Part shown: positions 948 to 27,524 of the stretch, piece by piece
Layout of the letters: each line of letters starts with the position of its first letter
Position numbering within the stretch: the first letter of the stretch is position 1
Source of the DNA: Colwellia sp.
Lineage (GTDB): Bacteria; Pseudomonadota; Gammaproteobacteria; Enterobacterales; Alteromonadaceae
NCBI GenBank assembly: GCA_022969215.1
Contig: JALJPA010000017.1
Span: 1-38,475, forward strand
DNA length: 38,475 nucleotides
Reading direction: 5' to 3'
The notes under the pieces: model-generated
What the model was told of the DNA's origin: nothing
What the model saw: only the letters and a program-made list of their open reading frames with translations
Database searches by the model: none
Position numbers and translations under genes: made by a program

Positions 948-1142
948 TTATTGGTTCATCATTCCGAAAATTTTAAGGTTAACTCTGTATGCTAACCCAC
1001 CTTTTTTAGCTGTGACATCTGAATTTAATACAACAATTTTAGATGGCTTCCATGCTTCCATTGCATCTAAATTATTTAGCGCCTCGGTAATTCTATCTAA
1101 AGATTTATCTGATATATCATTTCTGGTTACTGGTCTATTCAT
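948..1142 (-). CDS. Hypothetical phage protein
   Basis: ORF packed against the upstream gene. Confidence 0.5.
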   Translation of the reverse strand: MNRPVTRNDISDKSLDRITEALNNLDAMEAWKPSKIVVLNSDVTAKKGGLAYRVNLKIFGMMNQ

Positions 1143-1576
1143 TAGAAAAATCCCATTAGTTTGTTATATTCGCTTTCATCCGCTGTATGAAATACCTTTT
1201 CTAAAGCTGCATTTACTAAGTTATTGTAAAATACCCCCCTATCTTCAGGGTTCATTTTTTCGTAGCTAATTGATACAGGAACTAATTCAAACCGTTTGCC
1301 ATCTGGTAAAAATTCTTGTTTCACATAGCCAGCAAACATTGTTAACTTCCTTCTTGTTAACTCGACCTGTCCCCTCGTTACATTTTTATCACCATAATAA
1401 AACTGAGTACAATAATTAAAAAACGCCCATACTTTTTTATGCAATCTGTAATTCTGATAAAGCTTTATATCTGCAATGTAATATTCGTTATTCTTAAGTG
1501 CCTTTAGTTGTTCTTCAGCTACCTCATCTGCTGGAGAAAGTAAGCCACCTGGATTCTTTTTCATGCTAACTTTCAA
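1142..1576 (-). CDS. DUF1367-like phage protein
   Basis: GGLLSPADEVAEEQLKALK...YRLHKKVWAFFNYC pattern; likely start may be internal Met (MKKNPGG). Confidence 0.5.
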   Translation of the reverse strand: MKVSMKKNPGGLLSPADEVAEEQLKALKNNEYYIADIKLYQNYRLHKKVWAFFNYCTQFYYGDKNVTRGQVELTRRKLTMFAGYVKQEFLPDGKRFELVPVSISYEKMNPEDRGVFYNNLVNAALEKVFHTADESEYNKLMGFF

Positions 1577-2968: not shown

Positions 2969-3304
2969 TTAAATTAAAATTGGTTCTTCACAGTATTGAC
3001 ATTCGCCGAGTGATAAGATTTTTTTCCCTGAAAAACTCCAGCCCTCAACCAAGCTAATATTGCTTAAAGTTAAATAGTTAAAATCATAGCCAACCGATAC
3101 ATTCTTAACCTCGCCGGTAATGTCGTAATATTTACCTTGGTAATTAGTAATTACATGATCACGCTCTTCGTTTATCATCGCCTTGCATTCAGGAAATAAT
3201 GCTTTTAAGAACAAATGAAACTGATAGCATCCACCTTCTAAAAATATAGTTTTAATATATTTGTCTGATTCTCGTAATGAGTTAATTACAGTTAGTATTT
3301 CCAT
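2969..3304 (-). CDS. Small protein with possible Cys/His/Asp peptidase-like motif
   Basis: GGCYQFHLFLKALF...DHVITNYQGKYYDITGEV. Confidence 0.45.
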   Translation of the reverse strand: MEILTVINSLRESDKYIKTIFLEGGCYQFHLFLKALFPECKAMINEERDHVITNYQGKYYDITGEVKNVSVGYDFNYLTLSNISLVEGWSFSGKKILSLGECQYCEEPILI

Positions 3305-3933
3305 TGTTGTTTATTCCTTGTTTTGATTATTCGATTCATTCTATTTTCAAGCTGTGATTTACTTCGCTCATTTGAGTTCGAGCAACGTTCGCTGATCTCT
3401 TTGTCAATTTCAGTTGAGGTGCTTTCAATTGTTAATAGCTTTTGGTCACGTATGGGTAATTTACCTTTGCGCTTTAACTCCAGCTTTAAACCGAACGTTT
3501 TATTAAATAACACTCTAGCTTTTGAATCAGATAAAACACGCTTGCATTCATAGCCACATGCTTGCCTTGTGAAGTATTCAACATCGTCTAGCACTGGCTT
3601 TTTGTTAATCATGCGGTTGTATGCTTCCGTAGTATCAAAATCAAGACACAAACTTAAAAACTCAGGCAATGATGGGGGCCAACTTAATCTGTCACTTACC
3701 GTTCTTTCTACACCCCTTTTAATGTGTTGCTCAGTAATCGGTGAAAGATTGGTTATCCACATGTTCGATGGCGTTTCCCCTCTCTCCCTCATCCACTGTT
3801 CCCCCCATATATCCGCCATTTGTTCCCACACCCAATCCGCATTCATTTGGTTGTTGTCTATACTTGGTATCGTTTCTTTGCTTGACCCTTTCGAGTGCTG
3901 AAAGTTTTTGACCAGTGCTTGAAGTTTGTCCAT
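3292..3933 (-). CDS. Lambda P-like replication protein
   Basis: WVWEQMADIWGEQW...SWPPSLPEFLSLCLDF pattern; downstream of an O-like gene. Confidence 0.65.
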   Translation of the reverse strand: MDKLQALVKNFQHSKGSSKETIPSIDNNQMNADWVWEQMADIWGEQWMRERGETPSNMWITNLSPITEQHIKRGVERTVSDRLSWPPSLPEFLSLCLDFDTTEAYNRMINKKPVLDDVEYFTRQACGYECKRVLSDSKARVLFNKTFGLKLELKRKGKLPIRDQKLLTIESTSTEIDKEISERCSNSNERSKSQLENRMNRIIKTRNKQQWKY

Positions 3934-4369
3934 TATTAACGCGCCCTATATTTTTGCACCACTTTAATTTAAAACCAGCCCAACCTTCTTGAGCTGAAAT
4001 TTTTATAGCCTCTGAGAATTCAATCTCTGAACTTTTTACTTCGTTTACAATTGCCATAAGAGCCGTTTTAGTGTCTGATGACTTTTTGGTTTTTCTAACT
4101 TTTAACCAATCATCTAAAACGTCCTTATCAACACCTAGCAACAAGCATTCATTTTTGAAATCGAATTTATTTCCCACCACCTCTTTTGCAGGAGCTTTCT
4201 TTTTACTTTCACTTTTCTCTAGCGCTTTAAAATGGTCCGTTAAAAGTATATCCAGGTAAAGACTTGCGCTTGGTCTGCAATGAGGTATATCAAGCTTTGC
4301 CCCGTACTTGTCTAAATTTGACTGATTACCATTCGACAGGTAGTAGCCCTTAGTTGTCTTTTTATTCAT
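3731..4369 (-). CDS. Replication protein, O-like C-terminal region
   Basis: DFKNECLLLGVDKDVLDDWLKVRKTKKSSDTKTAL...AQEGWAGFKLKW pattern; gene order with P. Confidence 0.5.
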   Translation of the reverse strand: MNKKTTKGYYLSNGNQSNLDKYGAKLDIPHCRPSASLYLDILLTDHFKALEKSESKKKAPAKEVVGNKFDFKNECLLLGVDKDVLDDWLKVRKTKKSSDTKTALMAIVNEVKSSEIEFSEAIKISAQEGWAGFKLKWCKNIGRVNNGQTSSTGQKLSALERVKQRNDTKYRQQPNECGLGVGTNGGYMGGTVDEGERGNAIEHVDNQSFTDY

Positions 4370-6311: not shown

Positions 6312-6602
6312 TTAATATCCTTGTTTTATCTTTACACCGTGATGCTGCATACCATTTAAAATACACATTCCAGCTGGCCCGTCTGGCAAATAATCACCAT
6401 CTATTGAGTCAAATATTTTTGATATTCTTGAAAATACAGCTTCCTGCCAATCGTCATTGTCTTCAACTAATAAAGGGATTGCGTTATACCAATCCAAGGA
6501 GAAATCAATAGCTTTTTCCTGATCGCTAATCATCCCTTGAAACGGTCTTAATATATGCTGCTCGACAAACTTTTTATAATCTTGTCTTTTTAATTGTTTC
6601 AT
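6312..6602 (-). CDS. Hypothetical protein
   Basis: ORF. Confidence 0.5.
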   Translation of the reverse strand: MKQLKRQDYKKFVEQHILRPFQGMISDQEKAIDFSLDWYNAIPLLVEDNDDWQEAVFSRISKIFDSIDGDYLPDGPAGMCILNGMQHHGVKIKQGY

Positions 6603-6625
6603 TTATCTATTCCTATATTTTAAAG

Positions 6626-7411
6626 TTAAGCTTCGTTTATTCTGTTTACAGCAGTGTTGAAATATTTATCATCTAACTCAATGCCTATGAATTTACGGTT
6701 AAGGTTCTTAGCTGCTACTCCAGTTGTTCCGCTTCCCATTGTGAAATCTAAAACTATATCGCTTTCGTTTGTGTAAGTTTTAATTAAGTATTCCATTAGT
6801 GGTGCGGGCTTTTGCGTTGGGTGTAAGCTGCCGTTGTTTGGGTTTGAAAAGTCTAATACTTGTCTTGGGTAATTCTTTTTTGATATCACCCGACTAAGCT
6901 TTGAGTTTTTCCTTGCTGGGTTGACCCCTTTATCACCTCCTAAATACGTTTTTGGTCTACTCCACGGTATATTGCAATCTTCTGTACCTTGTGGCGTATA
7001 AGGCATATTACGTTTTGACCCGTTTGCCGTAGCTCCACTGCTAAACACAGATATAACCTCTAAGTCCTTTAATGGCTTTAGCTTGGCGTTAGGAAAACCA
7101 GAAGGTCTACTTTTACGCCATTGCCAATCGTACTTAAATTGGACCACGTTAGATATTCTAAGGTAGCTACTAAAGGGTTCCTGCCCAAACAATACAATAG
7201 CGCCATTAGGCTTAATGATTCGCTTCAATTGCTCCCACATCAAAGTTAAATCAATAACTGAATCCCACTTACACGCTGTTGTGCCGTATGGAGGGTCAGT
7301 TAAAATCATATCAACCGAGCCATCGTCAATCCACTTCATTTTCTCTAAACAATCCCCGTGCATTAGCCAAGGCTTATTTGATTCATTTTCTCTTTGTTCA
7401 TCGTAGTGCAT
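6626..7411 (-). CDS. Site-specific DNA methyltransferase (amino-MTase, DPPY)
   Basis: MILTDPPYGTT near the N-terminus and DFTMGSGTTGVAAKNLNRKFIGIELD near the C-terminus (beta-class order). Confidence 0.92.
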   Translation of the reverse strand: MHYDEQRENESNKPWLMHGDCLEKMKWIDDGSVDMILTDPPYGTTACKWDSVIDLTLMWEQLKRIIKPNGAIVLFGQEPFSSYLRISNVVQFKYDWQWRKSRPSGFPNAKLKPLKDLEVISVFSSGATANGSKRNMPYTPQGTEDCNIPWSRPKTYLGGDKGVNPARKNSKLSRVISKKNYPRQVLDFSNPNNGSLHPTQKPAPLMEYLIKTYTNESDIVLDFTMGSGTTGVAAKNLNRKFIGIELDDKYFNTAVNRINEA

Positions 7412-10404: not shown

Positions 10405-10815
10405 TTATTGATGCGTAGGTAGCTGCTTGGTATTGGTGCTGGTGTCATTATCATTTCCCTTTTGTTCGTTTAGTAGTTCTGTGTTTTCGTTTACTGTTCC
10501 GATTATTCTACACCCCAACCATTCACTCAAAGAATCAGATTCATTAAAATTACAATCGACCACGTAAGATAATCTATTCTTGCACCACCTAACCACACCT
10601 GTAGCACAAAAAGACTCATCTGGCGCGAAGAATAGCGCAGTTACAATACTTCCTTCGTATACGTCAAATAAGTCTGTATCTGTATCCCCCGTACACTGCT
10701 CAACAACAAATTGATCACTGCCATTAAAGCCGTGCTTTTCAATTAACCTGGTTGCATCTTGCCATTCTGGAATATAACATTTGTTCTTCTTGTCCCATGC
10801 TCTGAATTTATACAT
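10405..10815 (-). CDS. YopX-family protein
   Basis: YKFRAWDKKNKCY...QCTGDTDTD...DVYEGSIV...IIGTVNENTELL. Confidence 0.75.
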   Translation of the reverse strand: MYKFRAWDKKNKCYIPEWQDATRLIEKHGFNGSDQFVVEQCTGDTDTDLFDVYEGSIVTALFFAPDESFCATGVVRWCKNRLSYVVDCNFNESDSLSEWLGCRIIGTVNENTELLNEQKGNDNDTSTNTKQLPTHQ

Positions 10816-11281
10816 TATTTTGTTGTCCTTTTAATTCATGTATCTTTTTTGCAAGGCAGTGTAAATCATCAATATATTTAGTTGTTATTCCAGCGCTAGT
10901 ATCAAATAGATCTTCAATTACTAATTCTGCATCTGTTGGCTTTTTTCTGTATTCAGAAGAAGTACCCCAACAAGGTTGTATATCTGTATCCTCCCACTGC
11001 CCATCACCACCCAAAAATTGGATAAAGTTCTCGCTTGGACAATCTGCCCACCAGTTAATTAAATCAGCGTGTACGTGTCGCTTTTTTCCTATTAATTCGA
11101 ATTTGCATGAGTTACCCATCCAGTACATATCATCAGTACCTTTTAACACTGGGAAGCGCCCACGAGGAGATTCCTGAATAACATGCTCGCCGTTCTCTAG
11201 CCCTGTATCACCTGACCAAGTACATAAAACACTGTCGCCTACTTTTAAATTATTCTCTTCCACTATTTCTTGTAAGTTCAT
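10808..11281 (-). CDS. Hypothetical phage protein
   Basis: ORF, phage-like composition (WADCPSENFIQFL...YRKKPTDAELV). Confidence 0.5.
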   Translation of the reverse strand: MNLQEIVEENNLKVGDSVLCTWSGDTGLENGEHVIQESPRGRFPVLKGTDDMYWMGNSCKFELIGKKRHVHADLINWWADCPSENFIQFLGGDGQWEDTDIQPCWGTSSEYRKKPTDAELVIEDLFDTSAGITTKYIDDLHCLAKKIHELKGQQNNV

Positions 11282-11305: not shown

Positions 11306-11734
11306 TTAAAATGGCACGTCTTCGTCAAAGTCAATTACCTTCTCAGTGGGTATATTGACATCTATTAATTTTTGTACGACTGGCTTATTTTGGTCGGTTA
11401 AGTTATTAACAACACTATCAATCGCAAGTGTTATTTTTGCTCTAGTAGTTGGGTCTGATTTTAATTTGTTTACCGACTTTTCAAGTTCGCCACCAAACTG
11501 AGATATTAAAACCCTTGCAAGTTTACGTTTCATTTCTTCTTTCATTATTAAAGTGAACTCTTCAGAATTAAGAAGATCACTTACTGCAGCTTGCGAGATT
11601 TGCTTTAACTTTTCAGACTCATCAAATAATGCGTCTTTAACTGCTGATACTAATGGTGAAGAATAGCTTGTTAAAGCCTCATGTAGTGCCTTGTCAATTG
11701 TTTGTTTGCATTGCTCTATTAGTTCTTGTTTCAT
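11306..11734 (-). CDS. Helical protein with SSB-like C-terminal tip (DFDEDVPF)
   Basis: C-terminus VIDFDEDVPF* read directly from 11306-11335; body looks helical, not OB-fold. Confidence 0.6.
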   Translation of the reverse strand: MKQELIEQCKQTIDKALHEALTSYSSPLVSAVKDALFDESEKLKQISQAAVSDLLNSEEFTLIMKEEMKRKLARVLISQFGGELEKSVNKLKSDPTTRAKITLAIDSVVNNLTDQNKPVVQKLIDVNIPTEKVIDFDEDVPF

Positions 11735-11741
11735 TGTTTGT

Positions 11742-11969
11742 TTATCCTTTTATATTTGTTAATGAATTTCCAACGAGGCCTGTTTTATCTTCGCCGAAAT
11801 GCTCTATACCGCATGTTCTACAATAATATATGCCGCAATGGTGACACCTATACATTTTAATTATTGAAACAGTTTTCCCACACTGACAAGGTATTTTTAC
11901 GCCGCTTGCTGGTTTTGCAGCTCTTAACTGCTCACCGAGAATTACTGTCAGCTTTGTTACTCTGTCCAC
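11742..11969 (-). CDS. Zinc-finger protein (GTG start)
   Basis: CQCGKTVSIIKMYRCHHCGIYYCRTCGIEHFGE. Confidence 0.6.
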   Translation of the reverse strand: MDRVTKLTVILGEQLRAAKPASGVKIPCQCGKTVSIIKMYRCHHCGIYYCRTCGIEHFGEDKTGLVGNSLTNIKG

Positions 11970-12872: not shown

Positions 12873-13073
12873 ATGTTTATGTTATCAATAAAAGAAGGGC
12901 TGGAAGTTGATATAAAACAAGCTAGCCAAAACAGAATAAACGTAAGAGTAACCGAATTACTGAATTTGGGCCAAGAAATCGCAATGGCTGGTTCGCTATC
13001 AAAAAGTGAAGTGCTAACCATGATCAATAATAGAGTTGAAATATACCAAGCTATAATAAAGGAGCGTTTTTAA
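12873..13073 (+). CDS. Hypothetical protein
   Basis: ORF immediately upstream of recT. Confidence 0.55.
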   Translation: MFMLSIKEGLEVDIKQASQNRINVRVTELLNLGQEIAMAGSLSKSEVLTMINNRVEIYQAIIKERF

Positions 13074-13915
13074 TGAGTGAATTAGTTCAGTACATAGAAA
13101 GTCAAAAGGATTTATTTGTCCCTGCCCTGACTGATAACTCAATAATGTGGGATAAAGAAAAAAACTTTGCATACCAGATGATAATGGCAAATGATTATCT
13201 GCACGGTATAGCGAAGAAAAACAATCAAAGCTTACAAGACGCACTTGTCAATATAGCTACAATTGGTATAAGCCTAAACCCTGTATTGAAGCACGCATAT
13301 TTAATACCACGTAAAGGTAAGGTTTGCTTAGATGTTGGTTATATGGGCTTGCTTCATATAGCGCAATCGTCAGGTGTTATATTGTGGGGGCAATCTAAAT
13401 TGGTTTATGGTAACGATAATTACGTAAACAAAGGGATCGACAAATCGCCTCTGCATGAATTTAAGGCGTTTAGTGATCGCGGGCCTATTGTCGGGTGTTA
13501 TTGCACGGTAAAAACTGTTGATGGTGACTTTTTGACTGAAGAGATGAGTATATCAGATGTTTACGCTATACGGTCAAGGTCTGAATCGTACAAGAAGAAA
13601 TCTGGACCATGGGCAACTGATGAGGGGGAAATGATCCGAAAAACAGTTGTTAAACGCGCTTATAAATACTGGCCCAAATGCGAGCGATTAGGTACTGCTA
13701 TCCAAATGCTTAACGATAACGGCGAAGGTATAGAAAAAGATATAACTCCTGACCTGATAAGCCCAGAACAAATAGACATTTTACTGCCGTTACTTTGTGA
13801 TGATAAAGGAATGTACACAGAAAAAGGTTCAAAAATTTGTAGGGCTTACAAATTCAGTAATCTTGATGAAGTTACAATCGATCAGTTTGATGATGTGTTG
13901 GAGATGGCACAATGA
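13073..13915 (+). CDS. recT: RecT-family single-strand annealing protein
   Basis: ATIGISLNPVLKHAYLIPRKGKVCLDVGYMGLLHIAQSSG...KTVVKRAYKYWP. Confidence 0.92.
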   Translation: MSELVQYIESQKDLFVPALTDNSIMWDKEKNFAYQMIMANDYLHGIAKKNNQSLQDALVNIATIGISLNPVLKHAYLIPRKGKVCLDVGYMGLLHIAQSSGVILWGQSKLVYGNDNYVNKGIDKSPLHEFKAFSDRGPIVGCYCTVKTVDGDFLTEEMSISDVYAIRSRSESYKKKSGPWATDEGEMIRKTVVKRAYKYWPKCERLGTAIQMLNDNGEGIEKDITPDLISPEQIDILLPLLCDDKGMYTEKGSKICRAYKFSNLDEVTIDQFDDVLEMAQ

Positions 13916-14691
13916 TTATTATTGATGATATAGAGCAAGGAACAGATTCATGGTTTAGGTGTAAAGCTGGCGTTGCGAGTGCTAGCCGTTCTGCTGAATT
14001 CTCAATTGAGCCAAAGCTAGCGCCTATGCCTGATGCAACATATAGCAAAGAAGGTAAAGATCATGTTTATTGGCATGATTACACTTGCTACAGAGGTACA
14101 AACAAGGCGATTTTGCAGACTGTGATACGTGAGACATTACCGCAAGTATATGGTGATATGAGATGGGGCTATTTAGCTGAATTAGTCGCACAAGTAGCAA
14201 CTGGATTGTTACCGGATGAAATGAGCTTTAAACAGTGCGAATGGGGCAAAGAATGGGAGGACGTAGCCCGCGCACACTTTGAATTAACTCTTGGTGTCGA
14301 TGTCGATGTACCGGCGTTTATTTACAAAGATAACGAAATGCGCTTTGGTATTAGTCCAGACGGATTAATCAAAGGTAAAAAAGTCGGACTTGAATTAAAG
14401 TGCCCATATACAACCAAAGTTTACATTGAATTCCTAACGTGCGACAAAATCAAAAAAGAATATATCGAACAGTGCCAATACTCAATGTGGGTTACTGGTT
14501 ATGAGGGTTGGTATTTTGCAAACTACGATCCGCGAATGATAGATAAATCAAAACGCTTGCATTATGTGTTGATTGATCGGGATCAAGAGTTCATGGATAA
14601 ATACGACAATGCTTCAAAGCAATTTATTATTGATATGGATTCGATGCTGGAAAAGTCAGGCGTTAAATTCAAGTCACAATGGCAAGATTAA
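13912..14691 (+). CDS. YqaJ / lambda-exo-like exonuclease
   Basis: IEQGTDSWFRCKAGVASAS...FGISPDGLIKGKKVGLELKCPY...QCQYSMWVTG. Confidence 0.9.
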   Translation: MIIIDDIEQGTDSWFRCKAGVASASRSAEFSIEPKLAPMPDATYSKEGKDHVYWHDYTCYRGTNKAILQTVIRETLPQVYGDMRWGYLAELVAQVATGLLPDEMSFKQCEWGKEWEDVARAHFELTLGVDVDVPAFIYKDNEMRFGISPDGLIKGKKVGLELKCPYTTKVYIEFLTCDKIKKEYIEQCQYSMWVTGYEGWYFANYDPRMIDKSKRLHYVLIDRDQEFMDKYDNASKQFIIDMDSMLEKSGVKFKSQWQD

Positions 14692-25416: not shown

Positions 25417-25932
25417 TTAAACCCTACCATCTACAATAGCGTTAACGGCTGTAATGGTCGTTGCGTCTCGAATATCAATTATCAATTCACTCTCTTCATC
25501 TTTTATGTATCTGTACCTTGATAACCCATCATTGACAAATAAGTCATAAGCCGCTTGATCTGCAATGGCTAACACATCATCTTGATCACCGTTTTGTATT
25601 TTATACGGGAATCCACCGAATACTTGAATACCAATATAATTGCTGCGATTATCTAAAACCAATGGGAACGGCATAGATAAATGAGTAAAGCCATCACTTA
25701 TCAACTGTACCGTTTTTATTCTAACATCACTTAGCTTTTCTTCTTGAGCGAATGCAAGTTGTCCACCTAACACAAAACCATCAATCGTTGTTTCCTCGGC
25801 TGGGGTAAATGTACCGATTATTGTCATCTGATCGCCAGTGTAATTAACACCGTCATTAGTTATTGGCTCATCGTCAATTTGTTGCTGCATGTACTTGATA
25901 CTTGCATCTGTCGCAGTTAATGTATAGCTCAT
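25417..25932 (-). CDS. Hypothetical structural protein (start re-assigned to MSYTLTA)
   Basis: GGAGGG Shine-Dalgarno upstream of 25932. Confidence 0.55.
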   Translation of the reverse strand: MSYTLTATDASIKYMQQQIDDEPITNDGVNYTGDQMTIIGTFTPAEETTIDGFVLGGQLAFAQEEKLSDVRIKTVQLISDGFTHLSMPFPLVLDNRSNYIGIQVFGGFPYKIQNGDQDDVLAIADQAAYDLFVNDGLSRYRYIKDEESELIIDIRDATTITAVNAIVDGRV

Positions 25933-27524
25933 TATGAAACCCTCCATATATCTATTCTGGCATCGCTTATCCTGGCTTCGTCTTCATCCTTCCTATAACT
26001 TATATCTAAATCTATTGTTGCTGGTGAACCTAGTGTTGTATAGGTTGTTATTGATTCTGATACCCAACCGTTGTCCTCTTTTATGTTATGAAATAAGTAA
26101 TCACCGCCGTTACTGTGTGTATGCTGGGCTACGCCATCGACTTTAAATTCTAGATCGGTTCCTTTTTCTTTCTTTTTATTTGTTATTTGTGCAGTGAATG
26201 AAATTCTATATTTACCGGCGGGCTTTGTTGATGTTGTTACTGAGAGTTTTGATTGAAATGATCCTGAAGTTGTCGAACTTTGCGGTAAGCTGCTAAACTC
26301 TTCGAACTCAGTGCCGAATAAGCCCGCACCAATTGCACTAAAAGATAACGGGGTTTCTGATCCCTTGCCTGTCTCCCAATCTCCACTTGTTCCTGATCTA
26401 ATAACAGAGACATTTACTTTTGTTATTACTGCGCTATCTTCATAAAAGAAAAAATCATCTCTTGTGAAGTCTTCGACAGTGCCAACAGTGCCAACACCCC
26501 TGATAGTTAAATCATTTAATATGTGACTCTCAACTTCAAATAACCCGTTATTTATCCTTGAACCAGTTATAGAGACAATATCGTTTTGAGAAAATATTGC
26601 AGAACCAACCGTAACAACCGTTGGGTTAGTAGTTGAAGGCTCTCCATTAGTGAATCGCTCACCCGCCACGGAATCAGTCGTTGATGTGGCTTGGTAAATC
26701 ACAGAAATTCCCGACTGTGTCGGAGTTGTAGAAGTATATTCGCTGTTCAATCTAGCGTAATCATCAGATATATTGCTAGTGTCACCTATATTTGCGATAG
26801 GGAAAGGTCGTGCTACTGCAAATCCTGATTCAATATAGGGCTTTGTTTGCCCGATAAACAAACCGTCCGTCTGAAGACCACCAAACAATTCAACACCGGA
26901 AAGTTTCAATAACATCTCATCGCCGGTATAGAAAAATACTACATTACCACCTTCAACTTTTGTTATGTCTAAGGTTAATATAGTTCCAACATCACTAATT
27001 AAAACGGGTAGTGTCACGTCAAGTATTACCGGACCTGTATCTAAAGGGCCAGCGAACGACTGAACCCTAATGTTACCCGCTGTTGCTGGTCTTATGCCAA
27101 AAGTTGATATTAAACTATCTACCGGAAATTGAAATAGCATCTCTTGAGGATCTGCTAACTGAGTTGTAAACACTGAAGCAACAATAAATGTTGAATCATC
27201 AGTTAAATCATAAACAACGCTTTCCACAACCCCATCGCTATTGTATTGAGTTGTCAACGGTATGTAATTAGCTCCGTACGCATCTGTTAGAGCCAGTACT
27301 CTTGTGCCGGGTGATACCTCTAACCCATCCCTTCCTAATCTAACAGAGCCGGGATTTGTTTCTACCGTCCCATCAACCTTGAGTATGTTTGTGCTGCTAG
27401 CTATTGACTCAACAAGCATACCACCTGATGATTTAGGTACGGAGTCATCAGGTAAGTTAATAATTGAATCGACAGCCTCTTGTTGTGAAGCGGATAGCCC
27501 CTTGGGTATTGATACGGTTCCCAT
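25932..27524 (-). CDS. Large virion-type protein of unknown role
   Basis: Beta-rich, in head operon between coat and gp4-like genes. Confidence 0.5.
   Translation of the reverse strand: MGTVSIPKGLSASQQEAVDSIINLPDDSVPKSSGGMLVESIASSTNILKVDGTVETNPGSVRLGRDGLEVSPGTRVLALTDAYGANYIPLTTQYNSDGVVESVVYDLTDDSTFIVASVFTTQLADPQEMLFQFPVDSLISTFGIRPATAGNIRVQSFAGPLDTGPVILDVTLPVLISDVGTILTLDITKVEGGNVVFFYTGDEMLLKLSGVELFGGLQTDGLFIGQTKPYIESGFAVARPFPIANIGDTSNISDDYARLNSEYTSTTPTQSGISVIYQATSTTDSVAGERFTNGEPSTTNPTVVTVGSAIFSQNDIVSITGSRINNGLFEVESHILNDLTIRGVGTVGTVEDFTRDDFFFYEDSAVITKVNVSVIRSGTSGDWETGKGSETPLSFSAIGAGLFGTEFEEFSSLPQSSTTSGSFQSKLSVTTSTKPAGKYRISFTAQITNKKKEKGTDLEFKVDGVAQHTHSNGGDYLFHNIKEDNGWVSESITTYTTLGSPATIDLDISYRKDEDEARISDARIDIWRVS

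Follow-up and report, generated by a model that had tools for sequence, protein, structure and literature searches.

The Locus and Its Gene Product

The window, a stretch of 38,475 nucleotides, is contig C79 of a Colwellia sp. bin, and the phage it represents is assigned to this host only by being a contig of that bin; the GC content of the window is 0.38, versus 0.39 for the bin loci that were read. Its minus strand contains an open reading frame of 142 codons with an ATG at 11734 and a TAA at 11306-11308 (table 1). GC content by codon position in this ORF follows a pattern like that of the neighboring genes. A strong ribosome-binding site (AAAGGATAAACAAACAATG) precedes it within the leader AAAGGATAAACAAACA, and a near-exact repeat of this signal stands before the next gene at 11281. 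The predicted protein terminates in EKVIDFDEDVPF (KVIDFDEDVPF; also given as TEKVIDFDEDVPF) followed by TAA, confirming the first-pass annotation, which had read the frame as ending in DFDEDVPF. At the composition of the window, DFD[DE]D[IV]PF is expected as a C-terminus 3.8e-10 times per gene, which rules out a chance match, and the looser form [DE]3[IVLM]PF is expected 8.9e-7 times per gene, or 4e-5 times in 50 genes.

The gene is part of a leftward operon that also includes O-like, P-like, and NinB/Orf genes, is read towards a YopX-family gene, and is divergent from recT-yqaJ. Its earlier designation as an "early" protein rests on inference from these O-like, P-like, and NinB/Orf neighbors. 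No SSB was found in the window by a family search of most early genes and a home-made SSB profile run over all ORFs, which is weak evidence in a fragmentary contig. Just upstream of the SSB-tip gene (11742-11969, minus strand) is a 75-aa ORF with a GTG start and a zinc-ribbon-like CxC...CHHCGIYYCRTC pattern. A near-identical phage from another metagenome (L021, IMG/VR) shares 99-100% identity with several proteins of the terminase/portal region of the window and about 85% with the protein at 25932-27524; its sequence does not extend to the SSB-tip gene.

Table 1. Features of the SSB-tip gene and its surroundings in the window
Feature	Position	Strand	Basis
SSB-tip ORF, 142 aa (helical body and disordered tail with SSB-type tip)	11306..11734	-	ORF translation, AF2
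Body, residues 1-112 (helices 2-22, 27-55, 58-92, 95-115)	11399..11734	-	Alignment A3 with L311, L322, L315; AF2
C-terminal extension, 30 residues and stop codon	11306..11398	-	Alignment A3, AF2; disordered from residue 119
SSB-type tip IDFDEDVPF and stop	11306..11335	-	Translation, comparison with congener SSBs
Leader with ribosome-binding site	11735..11759	-	Leader sequence
Next gene after SSB-tip ORF, 157 aa, unknown	10808..11281	-	25-base leader nearly repeats the ribosome-binding-site sequence of the SSB-tip gene
YopX-family gene	10405..10815	-	Pfam PF09643 2e-7; phrog_98
O-like replication initiator	3731..4369	-	phrog_678 1e-14, phrog_6451 6e-16
P-like helicase loader	3292..3933	-	phrog_109 5e-6
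NinB/Orf-type recombination mediator (candidate phage reader of SSB tips)	1142..1576	-	phrog_319 3e-25
RecT-family annealing protein, divergent operon	13073..13915	+	Pfam PF03837 3e-29; phrog_148 5e-62
YqaJ-type exonuclease	13912..14691	+	Pfam PF09588 1e-20

A Helical Body with a Disordered Tail

The protein has no family match above cut-off in Pfam, PHROGs, NCBIfam, or PADLOC, and no SSB (PF00436) match in the first three of these. Membership of DUF445 (PF04286) was rejected, the score being 17.7 bits where the cut-off is 33.8 (E 0.0036); the homologs described below have no DUF445 match. An AF2 model built from four aligned rows (the window protein and its relatives, one of them truncated) comprises four helices with a pLDDT of about 76-94 to residue 110, followed by a tail that falls below 50 from residue 119 and is predicted to be disordered. 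The low pTM of this four-row model (0.33) leaves the packing of the helices uncertain, and the single-sequence model reached a pLDDT of 42. Foldseek returned no significant match to the four-row model in BFVD or PDB.

As modeled, the body is a helical, non-OB protein. The OB-fold ssDNA-binding domain of SSB (PF00436) is missing, and the disordered tail closes, as in SSB, with an acidic tip whose last two residues are Pro-Phe (IDFDEDVPF). An ordinary OB-fold SSB is ruled out by the lack of an SSB match in Pfam, PHROGs, and NCBIfam together with the all-helical model. The first-pass annotation had anticipated an alpha-helical protein with no obvious OB-fold and proposed structure prediction of the 142 residues as a check, and on both counts the model agrees with it.

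A Small Phage Family That Lacks the Tip

Three relatives of the body were found, all in phage contigs, with phmmer E-values of 2e-33 and 4e-15. An exact-peptide scan of viral contigs was empty, and relatives surfaced only with the degenerate pattern DPTxRAKIxL, which recovered a 117-aa protein (L311, 9310-9663; 51% identity over the aligned part, phmmer 2e-33) and a truncated one (L315/L323; 52% identity over the aligned part in L315); a 113-aa protein (L322, 6001-6342; 37% identity over the aligned part) was added by an alignment-based scan. They share the core LAR/KVLISxFGGELEKxVNxLKxDPTTRAKITLAI (alignment A3), also written LAKVLISKxGGELEKxVNxLKQDPTTRAKITLAI. The family can be described as a helical protein of about 113 aa with this conserved core, a description that the window protein fits.

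Direct searches recovered no homologs of the window protein from 50,697 phage records or from plasmids, and only chance matches from genomes of the host order (395) and of its class and phylum (several hundred). Nothing further came from profile searches of the host family and class or from a pattern-based scan of GTDB contigs. Two weak matches, a membrane-anchored coiled-coil protein (L113) and a LysR-type regulator assigned by eye (L003), were dismissed as chance. As judged from the alignment, the body belongs to a new, small, phage-only family of four members, one truncated, that is missing from Pfam, PHROGs, and NCBIfam.

In L311, L322, and L315 alike, the homolog terminates about five residues or less from the shared body, and the window copy extends 25-30 residues past it to end in the tip; bar a few residues, this extension is absent from the homologs. 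Conservation of the tip in the family, which the first-pass annotation had listed as a point to check and whose absence it had counted as refuting its view, was not borne out, as none of the three homologs carries it. The tip is therefore, on the aligned sequences, an extension added on the window copy, although this does not show it to be inert, and the homologs suggest that the body works elsewhere without it.

Gene Neighborhoods of the Family

The homologs lie within the recombination modules of other phages. In L311, the gene is flanked on one side by an exonuclease VIII-type nuclease (phrog_412, 7e-66) and on the other by an ATPase that weakly resembles Sak4 (phrog_124, 3.5e-4) and whose best match is phrog_1366, a family with no assigned function. 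The L322 genes run in the order Erf (phrog_155), YqaJ (phrog_149), the homolog, YopX (6368-6790, phrog_8684/98), and NinB/Orf (phrog_72). Around the truncated copy in L323, a UvsX-like recombinase is found at a distance of about 1 kb and a gene with a match to the exonuclease family phrog_2506 at <1 kb. Separately, the Sak4-like ATPase of L311 (8312-9313, minus strand) has a charged tail of its own that ends in TDEEITSKF, acidic with a terminal Phe and noncanonical.

Because other phages encode the body homologs within their recombination modules, a link to recombination is independently supported. The partnership with RecT and YqaJ that had been proposed at the outset stands to that extent; the part that placed the gene in the same operon does not, as it belongs to the leftward operon, divergent from recT-yqaJ.

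The Tip Is of the Host SSB Type

No canonical ssb was found in the bin (5.04 Mb, 87% complete), and the host tip was therefore taken from congeners of the bin. Canonical ssb loci were found in 11 congeners, 10 of which end exactly in PSIDFDDDIPF; the eleventh has one ssb copy whose tip lies out of frame (L065) and another in which further residues come after the tip (L070). The phage tip shares I-D-F-D-x-D-x-P-F with the congener tip IDFDDDIPF, the sole exchanges being D to E and I to V. By comparison with these congeners it is a host-type SSB tip, and the resemblance to the acidic tip of bacterial SSB remarked on in the first reading holds. The bin also contains a 246-aa ORF (L055; G000:C379, 13639-14235) that encodes two SSB-like OB domains in succession and lacks an acidic tip.

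Nearly all of the tip codons that keep their amino acid differ from host ssb at the third base. This leaves a recent capture of the 3' end of host ssb unsupported and suggests upkeep by selection or convergence. The same pattern weighs against the view that the tip is a neutral relic with no present function, left behind, for example, by a past fusion to the 3' end of an SSB gene. Such a relic would fit with the absence of the tip from all three homologs, but we regard it as highly improbable.

The tail could also serve the protein itself, folding onto the C-terminal half of the body and gating DNA or partner binding, with its likeness to the SSB tip being incidental. That half is mildly basic (10 K/R vs. 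6 D/E), and in phage SSBs, for example Enc34 ORF6, acidic tails are known to act as gates on DNA binding (PMC5686142). A gate, however, requires acid only and not the exact host form IDFDxDxPF-COOH, which makes this reading improbable.

The Tip on Other Phage Proteins

Three exact scans of IMG/VR returned at least 186 ORFs ending in DFD[DE]D[IV]PF. Among the matches listed, 78 fit the home-made SSB profile and 108 do not, many of the latter matching PHROGs labeled as single-strand DNA-binding, so that most tip-bearing ORFs among these matches are SSBs or SSB-like and a few are not. In related phages found by TerL or RecT, tips ending in PF occur only on real SSBs (L013, L086). A clear exception to SSB identity is a 612-aa SF2 helicase (L230, 7479-9317, minus strand; ResIII/Helicase_C, PF04851 3e-20) with the C-terminus DFDDDIPF. 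A 309-aa ATPase ending in DFDDDVPF (L288, 7053-7982, minus strand; AAA_25, weak DnaB_C, start uncertain) is probably a RecA/DnaB-like ATPase fragment rather than an SSB, and a 234-aa protein of no known family that ends in DFDEDVPF occurs in two contigs (L118, 165-869, minus strand; L120, 814-1518, plus strand). Taken at face value, these C-termini indicate that the tip is mainly a mark of SSB yet occurs on other phage replication proteins. We found no account of a non-SSB phage protein with an SSB-type tip in open-licence papers.

The predominance of SSBs and SSB-labeled families among the matches listed raises the question of whether the window protein is itself an SSB substitute, its helical body binding ssDNA and, with the tip, replacing the OB-fold SSB usually encoded beside the annealase. 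The body homologs occupy usual places of phage SSBs, after YqaJ or beside the Sak4-like protein, and none of the three homolog contigs has a Pfam SSB, although these contigs are fragmentary and the evidence is weak; the basic C-terminal half of the body would also suit such a role. However, the body has no OB fold and belongs to no known ssDNA-binding family, it is near neutral as a whole (pI 5.9), and an acidic tail, which phage SSBs typically retain, is missing from its homologs. We therefore consider substitution quite unlikely.

A broader generalization, which we put forward tentatively and consider less likely than not, is that phages have repeatedly grafted the tip, as a portable docking peptide, onto unrelated non-SSB replication and recombination proteins (the window factor, the SF2 helicase, the DnaB/RecA-like ATPase, and the 234-aa protein), thereby placing host SSB-partner enzymes on phage complexes without SSB. 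The window protein would be the clearest such case because its tip-less homologs show the graft.

A Proposed Accessory Factor

The SSB tip is a hub on which bacterial DNA repair and replication restart are assembled. We propose, with about even confidence, that the window protein is a phage recombination/replication accessory factor that has gained an SSB-type docking peptide and uses it to tether an SSB partner to the phage recombination/replication complex. Its four-helix body, representing a small family restricted to phages and normally found beside an annealase/exonuclease pair, would in this phage have gained a flexible tail of roughly 25-30 residues ending in the host-type peptide. As in SSB, the tail would trail loosely from the folded body, and IDFDEDVPF-COOH would enter the pocket common to SSB-interacting proteins, with RecO, PriA, chi, DnaG, ExoI, and RecQ of the host or the phage's own NinB/Orf as candidate partners. 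The partner may then be brought to, or held at, the recombination complex of a phage that has no recognizable SSB of its own, and the window protein would probably redirect host repair and replication enzymes in this way. Docking, the identity of the partner, its recruitment rather than blockade, and the binding target of the body are all features that we infer.

Several observations are consistent with an accessory factor: the near-host tip with its minute chance expectation, the SSB-like layout of folded body and loose tail, the position of the homologs in recombination modules, and the presence of RecT, YqaJ, NinB/Orf, and O- and P-like genes in the window phage. Against it stand the lack of the tip in all three homologs, the operon opposite to recT/yqaJ, the assignment of the host by bin only, and a family of four with one member truncated. 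According to PMC10018359, SSB recruits at least 17 partners via a nine-residue tip, and binding by the Orf-family protein YbcN requires the SSB C-terminus PMDFDDDIPF (PMC4118853).

Alternatively, the tip may act as a decoy that fills the SSB-binding pocket of host nucleases and helicases (ExoI, RecJ, RecQ) or of an SSB-reading defense protein, keeping them off SSB-coated phage DNA, with the body as a mere scaffold that multimerizes for avidity. A host-type tip would be apt in a phage that needs to protect its recombination intermediates, and defense systems that respond to phage SSB exist, for example AbpAB (PMC10732053). Nevertheless, a decoy does not need a recombination-specific body, yet an association with recombination modules is what the tip-less body homologs show, and we consider this reading unlikely.

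Comparison with Known Systems

The proposed accessory factor resembles bacterial SSB in having the same extreme C-terminal peptide, IDFD[DE]D[IV]PF, on a disordered tail, but its helical body is unrelated to the OB fold and its docking is predicted. Phage SSB families (phrog_7364, 18154, 743, 9002; T7 gp2.5-like) end in the same or a similar acidic tip; these bind ssDNA, whereas the window body is helical and belongs to none of them. The tail of the T7 gp4 helicase-primase, a non-SSB phage replication protein that docks via an acidic C-terminal tail, provides a working precedent (PMC12593628), with the differences that it binds the phage polymerase gp5, that the window peptide has the host SSB form, and that the window body is of no known enzyme kind. 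The phage NinB/Orf mediators are likewise recombination accessory proteins that work with host SSB, and they are encoded close by in L322 and also by the window phage; Orf, however, reads the SSB tip, whereas the window protein carries it.

The occurrence of a tip-bearing factor alongside tip-less relatives offers a simple test of whether transplanting a nine-residue peptide re-routes host enzymes. The body family itself adds a previously unlisted member to the components of phage recombination modules, where it accompanies recombinases of the Erf, RecT, Sak4-like, and UvsX-like kinds.
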